From the NCBI RefSeq assembly GCF_016806835.2, contig NZ_CP086112.1:80001-144000 (forward strand): DNA of 64,000 nucleotides, read 5' to 3'. The stretch's first letter is position 1; each line of letters begins with the position of its first letter. The position numbers and the translations under genes were made by a program. This DNA is from Skermanella rosea (GTDB lineage: Bacteria; Pseudomonadota; Alphaproteobacteria; Azospirillales; Azospirillaceae). This document shows positions 6,292-18,524 of the stretch, in pieces. Under the pieces are notes generated by a model. The model was given only the letters and a program-made list of their open reading frames with translations, searched no databases and was not told the DNA's origin.

Positions 6292-8898
6292 ATGCCATCC
6301 ATTTCCGAGACGACCCCCACGGCCGCCGCCGGGAACGATTCCGCCGCGCCGGCGATCGCGCCCGAGCTTTTTCAGGTCCGTGCCACAGCTCCGGTCGTCA
6401 AGGCACCTGCCCTGCCCTCCGCATCGAGGCCGGGCGAGATCGTCGCCGTTCAGCTTCAGAACAATTCCGATGGCACCGAAGACGCCGGACTGATCACCTT
6501 CGGTCAGGTGTTCGGCAAGGGCGACCTGGGCGGCGGCAGCCATCTGGTCGGGGTTGTCGACGGTCGTGAAATCCCGGTCCAGATGGATGTCAAGGCGACC
6601 CACGCCGATGGCTCCGTGCGCCACGCCATCCTGACCATCGCGCAGCCGGCCCTGGCGGCGGGCGAGGTCGCGACCGTGATGTTGGAGGCCGCGGACCATG
6701 GACCGGGCGGGACGGCGATCAGGCCGGCGGATGTCCTCCGGAGCGGCTACGACGTCGATATCAACCTGACCGTCAGGGGCGCCAGCGGAACGGCGACCCG
6801 GTTCAAGGTGGACGCCGCCGCGGAACTGGAGAAGGCGACAGCCGCTGGCACCCTCAAGACCTGGATGAGCGGGCCGCTCGCATCCGAGTTCCGTGTCGTC
6901 AAGCCTCTCGACGATCATCTCGCCGTAACCCTCGATATCCGCGCTTTCGATGACGGCACGGTCCGTACCGACGTGACCGTCGGTGTGGAGTCGTCCTACC
7001 GGCCGGGCCTTCCGACCTTCTACAACTACGACGTCGAACTGCTCGATCAGGGCCGTGTCGCCTTCGAGAAGGACGGTATCGCTCACCACCGCAACAGCCG
7101 CTGGCACAAGGAAGTCTGGTCAGGGGACGCTCCCGGCGTCCATGTGGCGCAGGATGTCGGATACCTGAAATCGAGCGGGGCCGTCGTCGGCATCGATACG
7201 TCCCTCGGCGTGACCGCGGGCAGCCTCGGTCTCCCCTCGACTGCCGACACCGGCCCGATGGGCAACGCCACGATCATGAAGAAGATGACGGAAGTCGGCG
7301 GACGCGGCGACCTCGGCATCATGCCGATCTGGAACGCCCGCTACCTGGCGAGCCAGGATGAACGGGCCCTGGAAACCATGCTGGCCAACGCCGATGCCTC
7401 CGGCAGCATCCCCTGGCATTATCGCGACGAGAGCACGGGCGAGTACCTGCGCATCGACGATCACCCCGATCTGTGGATGGATGGCCGTACCCAGTGGCCG
7501 CAGTTCGGCGACGATGGGCTGACCAACGGCTTCGCCAACGGAGCCGCGGCGGGATGGGAGTTCGACACGGCCCATCAGCCGGCCCTCAACTACCTGCCCT
7601 ATCTCGTCACCGGCTCGCAATACTACCTGGACGGCCTGATGGCCCAGACCGCTTACAGCATCGCGTCGTTCGCCCCGCACTACCGTGGGCAGGAAGAAGG
7701 CTTCCTCGATTTCGACCAGGTGCGCGGACGGGCCTGGACGTGGCGCAACATGAGCGACGCCGCCTATGCCACGCCCGACGAGCACCCCCTGAAGGCCTAT
7801 TTCGTCAAGCTGCTGGACAGCAACCTCGACTCCCTGGTCGCCCGCCACATCGTCGATGGACAGGGAGACAAGTACGGCGAGTTCGAGGGCTTTCTTCGCC
7901 ACGACATGTGGCCGGACGGCGACCTGCTGGTCTGGCAATCCGACTTCGTCGTGCTAGCACTCGGCACCATGGCGCAACGGGGTAGCGAACAGGCCGTGAA
8001 GATGCTGGAGTGGATGGACAACTTCACCTCGGGCCGCTTCATCAACGAGGAGAACGGCTTCGATCCGCGCTTCGGCTCGGCCTATATGTTCAAGGTCAAT
8101 GCCCCCGGCAACGGCCCCGCCTATGACACCTGGGAAGAGCTGTTCCAGCGCAGCTTCGGCAACGCGCCGGCCGATCCGCCGGACGGCATCCAGGGGTGGC
8201 CCAGCTCTCCCTTCGCCTACGCGGCCAATGCCCGGGCGGCGGTCTCCGCGATCTTCACCGCCACGCAATCGGCCGACGCCATGGAAGCCTTCGGCTACCT
8301 GACGAAGGAAATGGTCAAGGCCCGGGGTGCCGATGGGTTCCACGCCGATCCCACCTGGAACGTGGCCCCCCGACTGCCGGATGGCGATACGCTCGAGTTC
8401 GACCAGATCCGCATCGCTCGCGGCCCGGAAGACCAGATCCTGCGGGGGGCGGAGGGCAACGAGCTGATCCATGGCTCGGCCGGCGACGATACCGTGACGG
8501 GCGAGGGCGGCATCGACATCCTGTTCGGCGGGCAGGGGAACGACGCCCTTTCCGGCGGTGCAGGGGACGATTTCCTGTATGGCGGTGCAGGCGACGATCG
8601 CATCGCGGGAGGGGCGGGCGACGACTACCTCAAAGGCAACGGCGGGGCCGACCGGTTCGAGTTCGGCTCCAATGCCGGTGGACGGGACATTGTCGCGGAC
8701 TTCAAGAGGGGATCGGACCTCATCGAGATCGAGGCCGACCTCGATGGCAACGGCCTGACCACCGCCGCACAGGTGCTCGGTGCGGCCGAGGCCGACGGTT
8801 CCGGCAATGCGGTGCTCGATCTGGGCAACGGCCTGGAAGTCACCGTCCTCGGCCTCGCCCCGGACGAGATGACCGCCGGCATGATCCGGATGATCTGA
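6292..8898 (+). CDS. RTX-repeat secreted protein with large unassigned N-terminal region
   Basis: 868 residues. Residues about 723-790 hold glycine/aspartate nonapeptide RTX repeats (GSAGDDTVTG, GGQGNDALSG, GAGDDFLYGG, GAGDDYLKGN), followed by FEFGSNAGGRDIVADF, the usual closing block of hemolysin-type Ca-binding modules. There is no N-terminal signal peptide, so export by a type I system recognising the C-terminus is expected; no such exporter is in the window. The first 700 residues are not RTX. Phrases such as VDGREIPVQMDVKATHADGS and VRHAILTIAQP recall the RIFT-barrel start of rhamnogalacturonan-lyase-like proteins, so a polysaccharide-acting enzyme is possible but unproven. A strong hairpin terminator follows at 8923. 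Confidence 0.75.
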   Translation: MPSISETTPTAAAGNDSAAPAIAPELFQVRATAPVVKAPALPSASRPGEIVAVQLQNNSDGTEDAGLITFGQVFGKGDLGGGSHLVGVVDGREIPVQMDVKATHADGSVRHAILTIAQPALAAGEVATVMLEAADHGPGGTAIRPADVLRSGYDVDINLTVRGASGTATRFKVDAAAELEKATAAGTLKTWMSGPLASEFRVVKPLDDHLAVTLDIRAFDDGTVRTDVTVGVESSYRPGLPTFYNYDVELLDQGRVAFEKDGIAHHRNSRWHKEVWSGDAPGVHVAQDVGYLKSSGAVVGIDTSLGVTAGSLGLPSTADTGPMGNATIMKKMTEVGGRGDLGIMPIWNARYLASQDERALETMLANADASGSIPWHYRDESTGEYLRIDDHPDLWMDGRTQWPQFGDDGLTNGFANGAAAGWEFDTAHQPALNYLPYLVTGSQYYLDGLMAQTAYSIASFAPHYRGQEEGFLDFDQVRGRAWTWRNMSDAAYATPDEHPLKAYFVKLLDSNLDSLVARHIVDGQGDKYGEFEGFLRHDMWPDGDLLVWQSDFVVLALGTMAQRGSEQAVKMLEWMDNFTSGRFINEENGFDPRFGSAYMFKVNAPGNGPAYDTWEELFQRSFGNAPADPPDGIQGWPSSPFAYAANARAAVSAIFTATQSADAMEAFGYLTKEMVKARGADGFHADPTWNVAPRLPDGDTLEFDQIRIARGPEDQILRGAEGNELIHGSAGDDTVTGEGGIDILFGGQGNDALSGGAGDDFLYGGAGDDRIAGGAGDDYLKGNGGADRFEFGSNAGGRDIVADFKRGSDLIEIEADLDGNGLTTAAQVLGAAEADGSGNAVLDLGNGLEVTVLGLAPDEMTAGMIRMI

Positions 8899-8922: not shown

Positions 8923-8956
8923 GCCCGCCTGTGCGGAACCGCACAGGCGGGCTTTT
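8923..8956 (+). terminator. Rho-independent terminator that also contains a parS-like core
   Basis: A perfect 14-2-14 inverted repeat (arms GCCCGCCTGTGCGG and CCGCACAGGCGGGC) followed by TTTT, 24 bp after the RTX gene stop. Its centre, 8930-8945, is TGTGCGG-AA-CCGCACA, the same core found at 9011 and 10950 around parAB. Confidence 0.75.
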
Positions 8957-9009
8957 CACATCCGGGCGCTCGGGCCGGGCGCTCGGGAAGGAAAGACTGC
9001 CGCGGGGTG

Positions 9010-9027
9010 GTGTGCGGTTCCGCACAC
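9010..9027. promoter_or_regulatory. parS-like palindrome upstream of parA
   Basis: GTGTGCGG-TT-CCGCACAC, a perfect 8-2-8 inverted repeat with no T-run, 103 bp before the parA start. It shares the 16-bp core TGTGCGG-NN-CCGCACA with 8930-8945 and 10950-10965. ParB-type proteins bind 14-16 bp palindromes of this form beside their own genes, so a centromere site is the best reading. Confidence 0.6.
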
Positions 9028-9065
9028 ACATCCGCGGAAGATGGCCGAAGACCGGCAAACCGGCG

Positions 9066-9095
9066 TTGACAATGAGTCCGTGCGGTCCGAAACAT
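9066..9095 (+). promoter_or_regulatory. Candidate parAB promoter with overlapping half-sites
   Basis: TTGACA at 9066-9071 is a consensus -35; AAACAT at 9090-9095, 18 bp on, is a weak -10. GTGCGG (9080-9085) and CCGCAC (9099-9104) straddle the -10 and match the two halves of the parS-like core set wider apart, suggesting autoregulation by ParB or ParA. Confidence 0.4.
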
Positions 9096-9129
9096 CTGCC
9101 GCACAGATCCAATGACATAGAGGCTGGAG

Positions 9130-10026
9130 ATGGCGCGAACCGTCAAGACGACAAGCACAGGTTCCGGAACGCTCGTCGAGGATCGAGACGCCGGCGCAAA
9201 GGCGCCCCCGGCCACCAAACGCACCTTCCATCTCGCGGTCACCAACCTGAAGGGCGGCGTCGCCAAGACGACTACGGCGGTCAATGTGGCCTGGGGACTG
9301 GTCGATGCGGGAATGAGTTGCCTCGTGGTCGATCTGGACATGCAGGCGAACGCCACCTCGGACCTTGGCTTCGACATCAGCGAGGTCCGCGAGAACGGCT
9401 TGAACATGGCGTCCGTCCTGCGCGGGCAGTGCGAGATCGAGAGCATCCTCCTCCAGTACGGCGACACGGAGCTCTGGGTTGCCCCAAGCTCCAAGGCCCT
9501 GACGGACGCAGAACGGACGCTGAGCAGCGAAATCGGCGGAGAGAAGCGGCTGAGCCAGAAGCTGTCGGCTGTGCAGGGCCGGTTCGACGTCATCATCTTC
9601 GACTGCGGTCCCAACCTGAACCTGTTGACGATCAACGCGCTCAGCCTCGCCGATTACCTGATCATCCCGGTGCAGACCGAGTATCTGGCGGCCCACGGGA
9701 CCCTGAGCCTGCTGGATACGGTCGCCCAGGTTCGGGACAACTATAATCCGGGGCTGACCATCCTCCCGATCCTGCCGACCATGTACACGGCCAAGAACAG
9801 CCAGGAGCAGGCGACGCTGGGCGAACTGAACCGGCTGGTGTCGGACCTTGTCCCGATCTTCGAGCCGGTTCCGCGGGCCACGGTCTTCAGCAAGGCCTCG
9901 GCGGCCGGCCACCCTGCCCTGCGCGCCAGCGCGCGGTCCAAGGCCGTCGCGACTTACCGCGACTATGTGAAGCTCATCCTCAAGCACATCAGAGCGGCCC
10001 AGGCGGCTCAAGCAAAGGCTGGTTGA
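9130..10026 (+). CDS. parA: ParA-type partition ATPase
   Basis: 298 residues. The deviant Walker A motif KGGVAKTT is at 41-48 with the signature lysine, the A-prime motif VVDLDMQANAT at about 69-79, and Walker B in VIIFDCGPNLN at about 155. It is a P-loop ATPase that binds DNA non-specifically as an ATP dimer and moves replicons via its ParB partner. The first 32 residues, rich in Thr, Lys and Ala, are an extra hydrophilic extension rather than the helix-turn-helix of type Ia ParA, so transcriptional autoregulation would have to come from ParB. The parB gene starts 3 bp later. No rep gene adjoins it. Confidence 0.92.
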   Translation: MARTVKTTSTGSGTLVEDRDAGAKAPPATKRTFHLAVTNLKGGVAKTTTAVNVAWGLVDAGMSCLVVDLDMQANATSDLGFDISEVRENGLNMASVLRGQCEIESILLQYGDTELWVAPSSKALTDAERTLSSEIGGEKRLSQKLSAVQGRFDVIIFDCGPNLNLLTINALSLADYLIIPVQTEYLAAHGTLSLLDTVAQVRDNYNPGLTILPILPTMYTAKNSQEQATLGELNRLVSDLVPIFEPVPRATVFSKASAAGHPALRASARSKAVATYRDYVKLILKHIRAAQAAQAKAG

Positions 10027-10029
10027 TCC

Positions 10030-10923
10030 ATGGCTAATCTTCTCGCCCGTCGCTCGTCGGACAATATCCAGCGCCAGGTCAAGGAACTGGCCGCCAAGGG
10101 AGGCGAAGCCGATCCCAACGGCCGCCAGCAACGTATCCCCGTCTCCAGCGTCAAGCCCAATCCGAACCAGCCGCGCAAGAACGTCGACCCCGGCAAGATC
10201 GCGGCATTGGCCGAGAACATCCGCAAGGTCGGGCTGATCAATCCCATCACCGTCGTCTGGCTTTCCGAGGGCGAGTACGAACTGCGCGCCGGGCAGCGGC
10301 GCCTGCTGGCTCACGAGCACCTGGGCGAGACGACGATCCTGGCGCGGGTCTTCCTGAAGAGCGATCCCGCGGTTGCCATCGCCGAGAACCTGATGCGCGA
10401 AGACCTGGACGTGGTCGAAACAGCGTTGGCGTTTCGCGGGCTGATGGAGCAACTCGGCATCACCGACCAGACTGCGGTCGCCGATCTCGTCGGCATGGAG
10501 CGATCGCGCATCAGCCGGTTCCTGGGGGTGCTCCGGATGCCGCAGGATATCCTGGACGAATACCAGGACATGGCGGACCAGGTTTCGGCGGCACGGCTGT
10601 TCGAAGTCGCCTCGGCCGGGACCGAGGACCGCCAGCGCCAACTGTGGCATCTGGCCAAGGCCGGCCTGACCGAACGCGAACTCCGCGACGCGAAGCGCGG
10701 CGACGCTCCCGTCGAGATCGGCACCAGGCAGCCGTCCCGCCAAGCCGTCGCGAGCGACCGGAACATCAGGCCGATGAAGCCGGGCAAGCAGATACTCGGC
10801 ATCATCGACCGACTGTCCGCAACCATGGACGATTGGGAGAGCCGGCAGGCGCAGGTCGACGAGGATCACCGGATGCGGCTTGAGAGCCTGCGGGATCAGA
10901 TCGATCGTCTGCTGAAGGCCTGA
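10030..10923 (+). CDS. parB: ParB-family centromere-binding protein
   Basis: 297 residues. The N-terminal ParB/Srx-like CTP-binding domain runs from VSSVKPNPNQPRK (about residue 37) through the arginine motif AGQRRLLAHEHLG (about 85) and AENLMREDLDVVE. The central helix-turn-helix DNA-binding region is around 140-175 (TDQTAVADLVGMERSRISRF). The C-terminal 60 residues are charged and likely dimerise. It is translationally linked to parA (3-bp gap). The palindromes TGTGCGG-NN-CCGCACA at 8930, 9011 and 10950 are the obvious binding-site candidates. Unlike RepB of repABC plasmids, there is no repC downstream. Confidence 0.9.
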   Translation: MANLLARRSSDNIQRQVKELAAKGGEADPNGRQQRIPVSSVKPNPNQPRKNVDPGKIAALAENIRKVGLINPITVVWLSEGEYELRAGQRRLLAHEHLGETTILARVFLKSDPAVAIAENLMREDLDVVETALAFRGLMEQLGITDQTAVADLVGMERSRISRFLGVLRMPQDILDEYQDMADQVSAARLFEVASAGTEDRQRQLWHLAKAGLTERELRDAKRGDAPVEIGTRQPSRQAVASDRNIRPMKPGKQILGIIDRLSATMDDWESRQAQVDEDHRMRLESLRDQIDRLLKA

Positions 10924-10944
10924 AGGCGCTTTGGACGGGCAGGG

Positions 10945-10973
10945 AGGCGTGTGCGGATCCGCACACGCCTTTT
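10945..10973 (+). terminator. parB terminator hairpin with parS-like core
   Basis: A perfect 26-bp palindrome (half AGGCGTGTGCGGA, 10945-10970) followed by a short T-run, 22 bp after the parB stop. Bases 10950-10965 are TGTGCGG-AT-CCGCACA, the third copy of the shared core. Confidence 0.7.
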
Positions 10974-16895: not shown

Positions 16896-18524
16896 ATGCG
16901 TACCCTGATGCTTGCCGGCGCCCTCGCGTCGGCCCTGCTGTGCGGAACCGCACTCACCCAGGCAGCCGGTGCCGCCGATATCAAGAACGGCGGCTCCATG
17001 ATCGTGACCTACAAGGACGATGTCGCGACGCTGGACCCGGCGATCGGCTACGACTGGCAGAACTGGTCGATGATCAAGGCACTGTTCGACGGCCTGATGG
17101 ATTACGAGCCCGGCACGACGACCCTGCGGCCGAACTTGGCCGAGAGCTACGAGATGTCGGCCGACGGCATGACCTACACCTTCAAGCTCCGGCCGGGGGT
17201 CAAGTTCCACAACGGGCGGGCGCTCACCGCCGAGGACATCAAGTATTCGATCGAGCGCACCGTCAACCCCGCGACCCAGAGCCCCGGCGCCGGCTTCTTC
17301 GGATCGATCAAGGGCTTCGAGGAGGCGACGGCCGGCGACGGCAGCCTGTCCGGCATCACGGTGGTCGATCCCCGGACCGTCAGGATCGAGCTGTCGCGCC
17401 CCGACGCCACGTTCCTGCACGTGATGGCGATCAACTTCTCCTTCGCCGTCCCGAAGGAGGAGGTCGAGAAGTCCGGCGCCGATTTCGGCAAGCAGCCGGT
17501 CGGCACCGGCGCCTTCAAGCTGGCGGAGTGGGTGCTGGGCCAGCGGGTCGTGTTCGAGCGCAATCCCGACTACTTCGAACAGGGGCTGCCGCACCTGGAC
17601 CAGATCACCTTCGAGATCGGGCAGGAACCGACCGTGGCCCTGCTCCGGCTGGAGCGGGGCGAGGTGGACGTGCTGGGCGACGGCATCCCGCCGGCCCGTT
17701 TCCTGGAAGTCCGCGGCAACGCGAAGAACAAGGACCTGATCGCCGAGGGCGGCCAGCTCCATACCGGCTACGTCGCCATGAACGTGTTGATGGAGCCGTT
17801 CGACGATGTCCGGGTCCGCCGGGCCGTCAACATGGCGATCAACAAGGACCGCATCGTCCGCATCATCAACGGCCGCGCCGTTCCGGCGACCCAGCCGCTG
17901 CCGCCGACCATGCCGGGCTATGCCAAGGGCTACGAGGGATACGCCTTCGACCAGAACAAGGCCAAGGCGCTGCTGGCCGAGGCCGGGTTCCCCGACGGCT
18001 TCGATACCGAGATCCTGGCCAACAACACCGATCCCAACCCGCGCATCGTCCAGGCGATCCAGCAGGACCTGGCCGCGGTCGGCATCCGGGCGGCGGTCAA
18101 GACGCTGGCCCAGGCCAACGTGATCGCGGCCGGCGGCGAGCCGCAGGGCGCCCCGATGATCTGGTCCGGCGGCATGGCCTGGATCGCGGACTTCCCCGAC
18201 CCGTCCAACTTCTACGGCCCGATCCTGGGCTGCGCCGGCGCGGTGCCGGGCGGCTGGAACTGGTCCTGGTACTGCAACAAGGACCTGGACGCGAAGGCTG
18301 CCGCGGCCGACGCCATGGTCGATCCCGCGAAGAAGGAGGAGCGCACCGCCGCCTGGCGCGACATCTACCTGAAGATCATGGAGGACGCCCCCTGGGCTCC
18401 CGTGTTCAACGAGCAGCGCTTCACCATGCACAGCGCCCGCATGGGCGGCCCCGACGCGATCTTCGTCGACCCCGTCCATATCCCGGTCAATTACGAGCAA
18501 GTGTACGCAACCGATGTCCAGTAA
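16896..18524 (+). CDS. ABC transporter substrate-binding protein, family 5 (dipeptide/opine/nickel type)
   Basis: 542 residues. Sec signal peptide of about 26 residues (LAGALASALLCGTALTQAAG then AADIKNGG). The mature protein shows the SBP_bac_5 pattern: VATLDPAIGYDWQN, LAESYEMSADGMTYTFKLRP, the signature region VKFHNGRALTAEDIKYS (about 108-124), and a C-terminal lobe with WSGGMAWIADFPDPSNF. Members bind short peptides, opines, glutathione or metal chelates in the periplasm. The stop overlaps the start of the amidase gene by 11 bp (18514-18524). The amidase in the operon hints at an amide-containing ligand; this is inference. Confidence 0.9.
   Translation: MRTLMLAGALASALLCGTALTQAAGAADIKNGGSMIVTYKDDVATLDPAIGYDWQNWSMIKALFDGLMDYEPGTTTLRPNLAESYEMSADGMTYTFKLRPGVKFHNGRALTAEDIKYSIERTVNPATQSPGAGFFGSIKGFEEATAGDGSLSGITVVDPRTVRIELSRPDATFLHVMAINFSFAVPKEEVEKSGADFGKQPVGTGAFKLAEWVLGQRVVFERNPDYFEQGLPHLDQITFEIGQEPTVALLRLERGEVDVLGDGIPPARFLEVRGNAKNKDLIAEGGQLHTGYVAMNVLMEPFDDVRVRRAVNMAINKDRIVRIINGRAVPATQPLPPTMPGYAKGYEGYAFDQNKAKALLAEAGFPDGFDTEILANNTDPNPRIVQAIQQDLAAVGIRAAVKTLAQANVIAAGGEPQGAPMIWSGGMAWIADFPDPSNFYGPILGCAGAVPGGWNWSWYCNKDLDAKAAAADAMVDPAKKEERTAAWRDIYLKIMEDAPWAPVFNEQRFTMHSARMGGPDAIFVDPVHIPVNYEQVYATDVQ

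Follow-up and report, generated by a model that had tools for sequence, protein, structure and literature searches.

Candidate parS sites with an altered centre at the parAB genes of a Skermanella megaplasmid, two of them in terminator-like hairpins

Introduction

The closest described counterparts of the locus reported here are the chromosomal ParB–parS system, represented by Caulobacter and its site TGTTTCACGTGAAACA, the Noc–NBS system, the Bsr partition families and the stability module of IncU RA3. According to the portions of the comparison of ParB with Noc considered here, R173 of Caulobacter ParB contacts G1 of parS, the A1 of the Noc system is paired with a glutamine at this position, and base 6 of parS lies opposite residue 201 (PMC7383237). 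The part of a further report used here states that with the exchange E102A the Caulobacter protein no longer hydrolyses CTP and its clamp is locked (PMC8367383). The Bsr families of Burkholderiales secondary replicons use replicon-specific 16-bp palindromic parS sites, which share the central CG with chromosomal parS and are T-rich at the 5′ end (excerpts of PMC5450999). In RA3 the partition operon is followed by a tested Rho-independent terminator, and parS is located downstream of orf11. A further element, mpR, lies between orf11 and parS, and in the passages of this report used here, with which the comparison is by description only, parS is not described as part of the terminator (PMC7414963).

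The stretch of DNA analysed in this study, hereafter the window, comprises 64,000 nucleotides of the Skermanella rosea genome. The preliminary description of the window had left the replicon to be determined; it is contig C2 (612,959 bp), of which the window covers bases 80,001–144,000. Palindromes with the core TGTGCGG-NN-CCGCACA surround a parAB gene pair. Like the Bsr sites in the excerpts of PMC5450999, they are 16-bp palindromes specific to their replicon. Unlike them, they have AA, TT or AT at the centre and GC-rich arms, and two of them lie in terminator-like hairpins. With the chromosomal and Noc systems, as far as the portions of PMC7383237 describe them, the window shares the ParB_N/HTH fold, the pairing of Arg173 with G1 and the TGT...ACA ends of the site, whereas bases 3–7 of the site differ from chromosomal parS. 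It had been claimed that, compared with chromosomal parS, the core has another sequence but the same form. This holds for the bases; as to form, the central CG of the Bsr and chromosomal class is missing as well. The window ParB differs from the Caulobacter protein by R in place of N178, A in place of G201 (T in the relative G003), F in place of R204, and GQRR in place of GERR. Its kin also include the system on contig C4 of the same genome and ParBs of Azospirillaceae plasmids (TATTCGACGTCGAATA and related sites), which are 31–42% identical to it and have palindromes adjoining parB. All assigned sites of this group share the G at half-site base 5 with the window, and base C4 and residue R178 occur in many of them. 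Most of the plasmid kin have an ACGT centre (nearly all) and K/R-S at residues 200–201, whereas GGWWCC and A-A (A-T in G003) are found in the window clade.

Results and Discussion

The parAB genes and their palindromes

The parA gene (9130–10026, + strand) encodes an AAA_31/ParA-type ATPase of 298 aa. It is directly followed by parB (10030–10923, + strand), which encodes a protein of 297 aa with ParB_N and HTH_ParB domains, whose recognition helix begins at R158, the counterpart of Caulobacter R173. The adjacent genes thus carry the ParA AAA and ParB_N/HTH_ParB domains of a parABS system. The three palindromes were found at the positions and with the centres that had been reported, and the outer two indeed extend to 30 and 26 bp and run into TTTT. 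The left palindrome (8923–8952, core 8930–8945, AA centre) is 30 bp long, or 32 bp if the closing A-T pair is counted, and has TTTT next to it on the + strand. It starts 24 bp past the stop codon of the upstream RTX-repeat gene (6292–8898). The middle site (9011–9026, TT centre) has no T-run and ends 39 bp upstream of the −35 hexamer of parA. The right site (10945–10970, core 10950–10965, AT centre) is a perfect palindrome of 26 bp with TTTT on the + strand, and lies 21 bp after the stop of parB (10923) in the gap between converging genes.

The exact motif occurs three times in the genome of 7,759,404 bases (7 contigs), and all three copies fall within 2.04 kb around parAB, so that the even spread named in the preliminary description as an argument against centromere sites is not seen. 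A first-order Markov estimate based on C2 statistics predicts about 0.09 copies. The reversed pattern gave no exact match in the whole genome, and 100 shuffles of the window gave no exact copy. Allowing one mismatch adds two further sites in the genome, one of them at 16939–16954. With up to two mismatches 21 sites are found genome-wide, against 26 for the reversed control, and since this count is no higher than that of the control, the looser matches are regarded as background. The central NN is better given as WW, which is present in all 11 exact sites across four genomes (12% expected for a random centre).

These four genomes emerged from a set of 99, the window's own and 98 relatives, that was searched for ParB with an E value of 1e-40 or better. 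A close orthologue was found in 4 of the 99 (own genome included), all of one genus, the three relatives being 69–94% identical. The exact motif is likewise present in these four genomes, with 3, 2, 3 and 3 copies that without exception lie at parAB. Neither the ParB clade nor the motif was found in the other 95, which include a fifth member of the genus (G001). The co-occurrence gives a Fisher p of 2.7e-7, which overstates the case because orthologous loci are not independent. In an unguided search for recurrent palindromes this motif ranked first in all four loci. In G003, where ParB identity falls to 69%, the 14 specified bases of the site are still fixed, and none of the RTX, GMC and transporter neighbours was found in the 20 kb fetched.

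The contig C2 bears a replication initiator of the RPA type, and the S. mucosa orthologue resides on pSM-2, a complete circular plasmid of 434,629 bp that also has an RPA gene. On both replicons the RPA gene lies about 265 kb from parAB (in one direction, with C2 taken as circular). The GC skew of C2 is weak, and its minimum is about 30 kb away from parAB. Beyond the genus, a scan of genome contigs with the ParB alignment yielded at least 563 confirmed places, the best 80 of which are 29–45% identical and come from many phyla, no close relative from outside Skermanella being among these 80, and a scan of viral contigs yielded 33 distant loci. The closest ParB outside Skermanella among 82 genomes of the order is that of G110 (42%), and no recurrent or ACGT-centred palindrome was detected in the 20 kb fetched around it.

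The one-mismatch site at 16939–16954, TGTGCGGAACCGCACT, had escaped the preliminary description. It lies 6 kb from the other sites within a gene for a substrate-binding protein of a transporter (16896–18524) and is also present in S. mucosa and G004; the gene itself was not found in the fetched 20 kb of G003. G004 has the same codons at the site; since the two genes agree in 77% of codons wherever their residues match, however, the conservation of the site is not significant by itself. The site uses uncommon Gly and Ala codons (GGA 3/51, GCA 4/70). Because it is rare (one of only two one-mismatch sites in the genome), close to parAB and written in uncommon codons, we take it as a probable fourth, degenerate parS.

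ParB and its recognition of the sites

The structural model of ParB has a mean pLDDT of 82 and a pTM of 0.55, with blocks of 89–97 in the HTH region. The Foldseek matches are Noc and ParB structures (7nfu, 6t1f and 6s6h), and the TM score against the Caulobacter DNA-binding domain on parS (6s6h_A) is 0.71 by target; whole-chain scores by query are just 0.25–0.44, the domain angles being different. R158 occupies the position of Caulobacter R173, and the window sites have G1. A palindrome was assigned to 28 of the 32 ParBs aligned, and in every one of these 28 base 1 agrees with residue 173, the pairs being 9 R-G, 8 Q-A, 10 K-T and 1 E-T. The scripts did not filter by the base-1 rule; sites were assigned by hand, with preference, at loci that had several palindromes, for one that recurs or is shared with relatives, and several assignments rest on a single copy. 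Four aligned ParBs have no assigned site (L007, L033, L034, L041). At L029 a perfect CATCCGACATCGGATG, 2 kb downstream, would not fit K173 of its ParB and was left out of the assignment, as was one further imperfect palindrome each at L049 and L006. For five loci without a found site, predictions were written before wider flanks were fetched. Two of them were then found: at the first, the predicted 16-mer was exact, one copy lying 3.5 kb and the other 9.2 kb from parB, and at the second A1 was present as forecast, also in two copies. The other three had no fitting site, and the recurrent GC-rich near-palindromes of one of them (L199), which do not fit, were taken for something else.

Residues Q147 and G155–R163 of the HTH are invariant across the four ParBs of the clade. 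Bases 6–7 of their sites are GW, against AC in the plasmid relatives, and helix 6 has A-A (A-T in G003) against mostly K/R-S. A change of specificity at the parS centre may be inferred for this ParB clade; the link between the helix 6 residues and the site centre is a correlation only. The CTP box is GQRR (AGQRR; Q89 in the window) in all four clade members instead of GERR, which is found in 24 of the 28 other aligned ParBs, these being the 24 in which the search string located the box. The text available from the SCP1 report (PMC13245405) regards the pocket residues found in chromosomal ParB as one possible solution and no strict requirement, and GQRR is for this reason not treated as excluding the locus from parABS. 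Since this ParB has Q where its relatives have the E of GERR, it is not certain that it undergoes ordinary CTP cycling.

The interpretation of the palindromes as parS is strongly supported by the genome specificity of the motif, by its co-occurrence with a single ParB clade and by the contact rule between ParB and parS. A repeated palindrome near parAB that is specific to the ParB clade at hand is what the comparison has revealed. On these comparative grounds, the locus is a genuine parABS system whose parS sequence is a new variant, and the three palindromes are with high probability the centromere sites of the Skermanella megaplasmid.

Palindromes of other Azospirillaceae ParB loci

In the same genome, TGTTTCACGTGAAACA and TATTCGACGTCGAATA are each found at a single place, no more than 2.5 kb away from the ParB gene of contig C1 and of contig C4, respectively. 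Such separate sites for each replicon fit the replicon-specific parS of Burkholderiales, as presented in the excerpts of PMC5450999. Candidate parS sites, mostly of the form N4-CGACGTCG-N4, were also noted for the plasmid ParBs of other Azospirillaceae loci (L005, L026, L030, L035, L043, L195 and L198). A C-G centre is shared by chromosomal parS and almost every related plasmid palindrome detected, but not by the window sites; at L049 the centre is of the A-W type. The search for recurrent palindromes was blind to the centre, but the later selection kept six centre types, so this regularity is partly a product of selection. At L035 (2321–2354) of G028, a member of another genus, a parS-like 16-mer after parB lies in a perfect palindrome of 34 bp that has no T-run of 4.

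Do the outer sites act as terminators?

The outer sites are perfect palindromes with arms of 15 and 13 bp that lead into TTTT, so that two of the three window sites resemble terminators. Both follow stop codons, that of the RTX gene (8898) and that of parB (10923). The predicted RNA folds have energies of −32.8 kcal/mol (z −7.7) on the left and −31.2 kcal/mol (z −7.5) on the right. Among 77 perfect hairpins of C2 (stem of at least 9, loop of at most 6; 5,000 bases masked), only five, including both outer parS sites, lead directly into TTTT on either strand.

The main alternative is that the sites are true parS and that the outer pair owes its arms and T-runs to chance or to reasons acting at the DNA level only. 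In the relatives the core is fixed, and the arms and T-runs differ from genome to genome or are lost. No exact site of G004 has a T-run of 4 or more, and neither of the two in S. mucosa has one of 4, which is in favour of this alternative. A third S. mucosa copy, in which the outer pair T-A is changed to C-G, carries TTTTT and is the best terminator-like hairpin of that species. In G003, the left site has TTTT and wobble pairs in its arms, and the right site has TTT. Other ParB loci also have long parS palindromes that lack T-runs: among 37 unique candidate sites there, one has a T-run of at least 4 within 14 nt on either strand (L026:244), three others have at least 4 extra pairs, and none has both. 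A strict terminator scan, which listed neither outer hairpin, points the same way. The outer T-runs are only 4 long, and that of the right site (10950) can pair weakly with an upstream GGGA. Against a chance origin, Watson–Crick pairing continues beyond the core for 8 pairs on the left and 5 on the right, for which the per-site chance is about 1.5e-5 and 1e-3, respectively, in a comparison that examined 16 sites. Moreover, each T-run begins immediately where the stem ends, a short distance past a stop codon and on the same strand as the gene upstream. In the window clade, 3 of the 11 exact sites have a T-run and 2 of the 11 have a T-run together with at least 4 extra pairs. The frequency of T-runs, 3/11 against 1/37, gives a Fisher p of 0.033 when the relatedness of the sites is ignored.

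Taken together, the use of the hairpin looks opportunistic and lineage-specific, built round a fixed core, and a terminator role of the outer sites is, judged by the relatives, not a conserved feature of the system. The proposal that the same DNA serves as centromere and terminator survives for the hairpin structure of two window sites and fails as a general property, given G004 and S. mucosa; it is plausible but unproven. We lean slightly towards a parABS system in which the outer pair of parS sites truly functions in termination, and give the chance or DNA-level origin of arms and T-runs a substantial, lesser probability. In the literature searched on parS together with terminators (titles and the beginnings of abstracts), no description of a parS inside a terminator was found, nor did the literature searched contain any of six 16-mers, four from the present class and two related ones, as an exact string.

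The parA promoter and the operator question

The sequence TTGACA-N17-GAAACA (9066–9094, + strand), both hexamers of which are identical in all four genomes, is the probable promoter of parA. Its −10 hexamer is weak, and a consensus promoter scan reported no promoter in the region upstream of parA. Spaced half-sites extend across it (9080–9105), and both had been described as recurring there. This is accurate for CCGCACA at 9099–9105; GTGCGG at 9080–9085 is preceded by C instead of T and matches in only 6 of 7 bases. Around GAAACA, the half-sites are kept in S. mucosa, are absent from G003, and have both arms altered in parallel in G004, where their spacing is 14 instead of 13. Kept in one of three relatives, the half-sites are a possible but weak candidate for an operator. 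An exact site is found at the position of the middle parS in all four genomes.

It is conceivable that the sites are the operators of a repressor of parAB and its neighbours and not centromeres. Such a function would suit the middle site, which precedes the parA promoter, and the two half-sites that overlie it, but sites are also found downstream of parB and inside the transporter gene, and among the neighbours annotated ParB is the one DNA-binding protein that accompanies the sites at each of the four loci. KorB of RA3 binds both parS and operators according to the excerpts of PMC7414963, so an operator function is partly compatible with that of a centromere. A repressor-only interpretation was rated low because of the sites after parB and in coding sequence, and we consider it very improbable. 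Least credible of all is that the palindromes are merely intrinsic terminators that share a core sequence: strong GC hairpins with T-runs just past stop codons are present at two sites, but the middle site has no T-run and precedes a promoter, the core stays fixed as arms and T-runs change, and the motif has no further exact copies, its mere three occurrences in the genome having also led us to reject a generic terminator.

Proposed function and significance

We propose that ParB dimers would dock on the 16-bp TGTGCGGWWCCGCACA through the recognition helix of the HTH, with R158 reading G1. The docked ParB would close as CTP clamps and slide to neighbouring DNA, and ParA would move the ParB complex. 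ParB loaded at the middle site probably represses parAB, since this site closely precedes the parA promoter. The outer sites of this species appear to have gained complementary flanking arms and a T-run, and because of this acquisition the outer DNA probably ends the RTX transcript and the parAB transcript. Termination would keep RNA polymerase from running through the partition complex. A more far-reaching version, which we regard as rather unlikely, combines centromere and terminator in one element: the outer parS would be shielded from transcription that strips ParB off, and ParB may tune termination. The ParB lineage would have switched from a CG to a WW centre and lost the glutamate of the catalytic box, which now reads GQRR, perhaps giving long-lived clamps that need such shielding.

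The analysis provides concrete candidate parS sites for the Skermanella megaplasmid. A side result is candidate sites for a number of ParBs from Azospirillaceae plasmids, in which the recognition residue obeys the R-G / Q-A rule established by crystal structures. The ParB–parS code can be tested in this natural set of coexisting replicons, one of which has both an altered centre and an altered CTP box. If parS and terminator do share the same DNA, the locus would offer a simple test of the separation of transcription from ParB loading.
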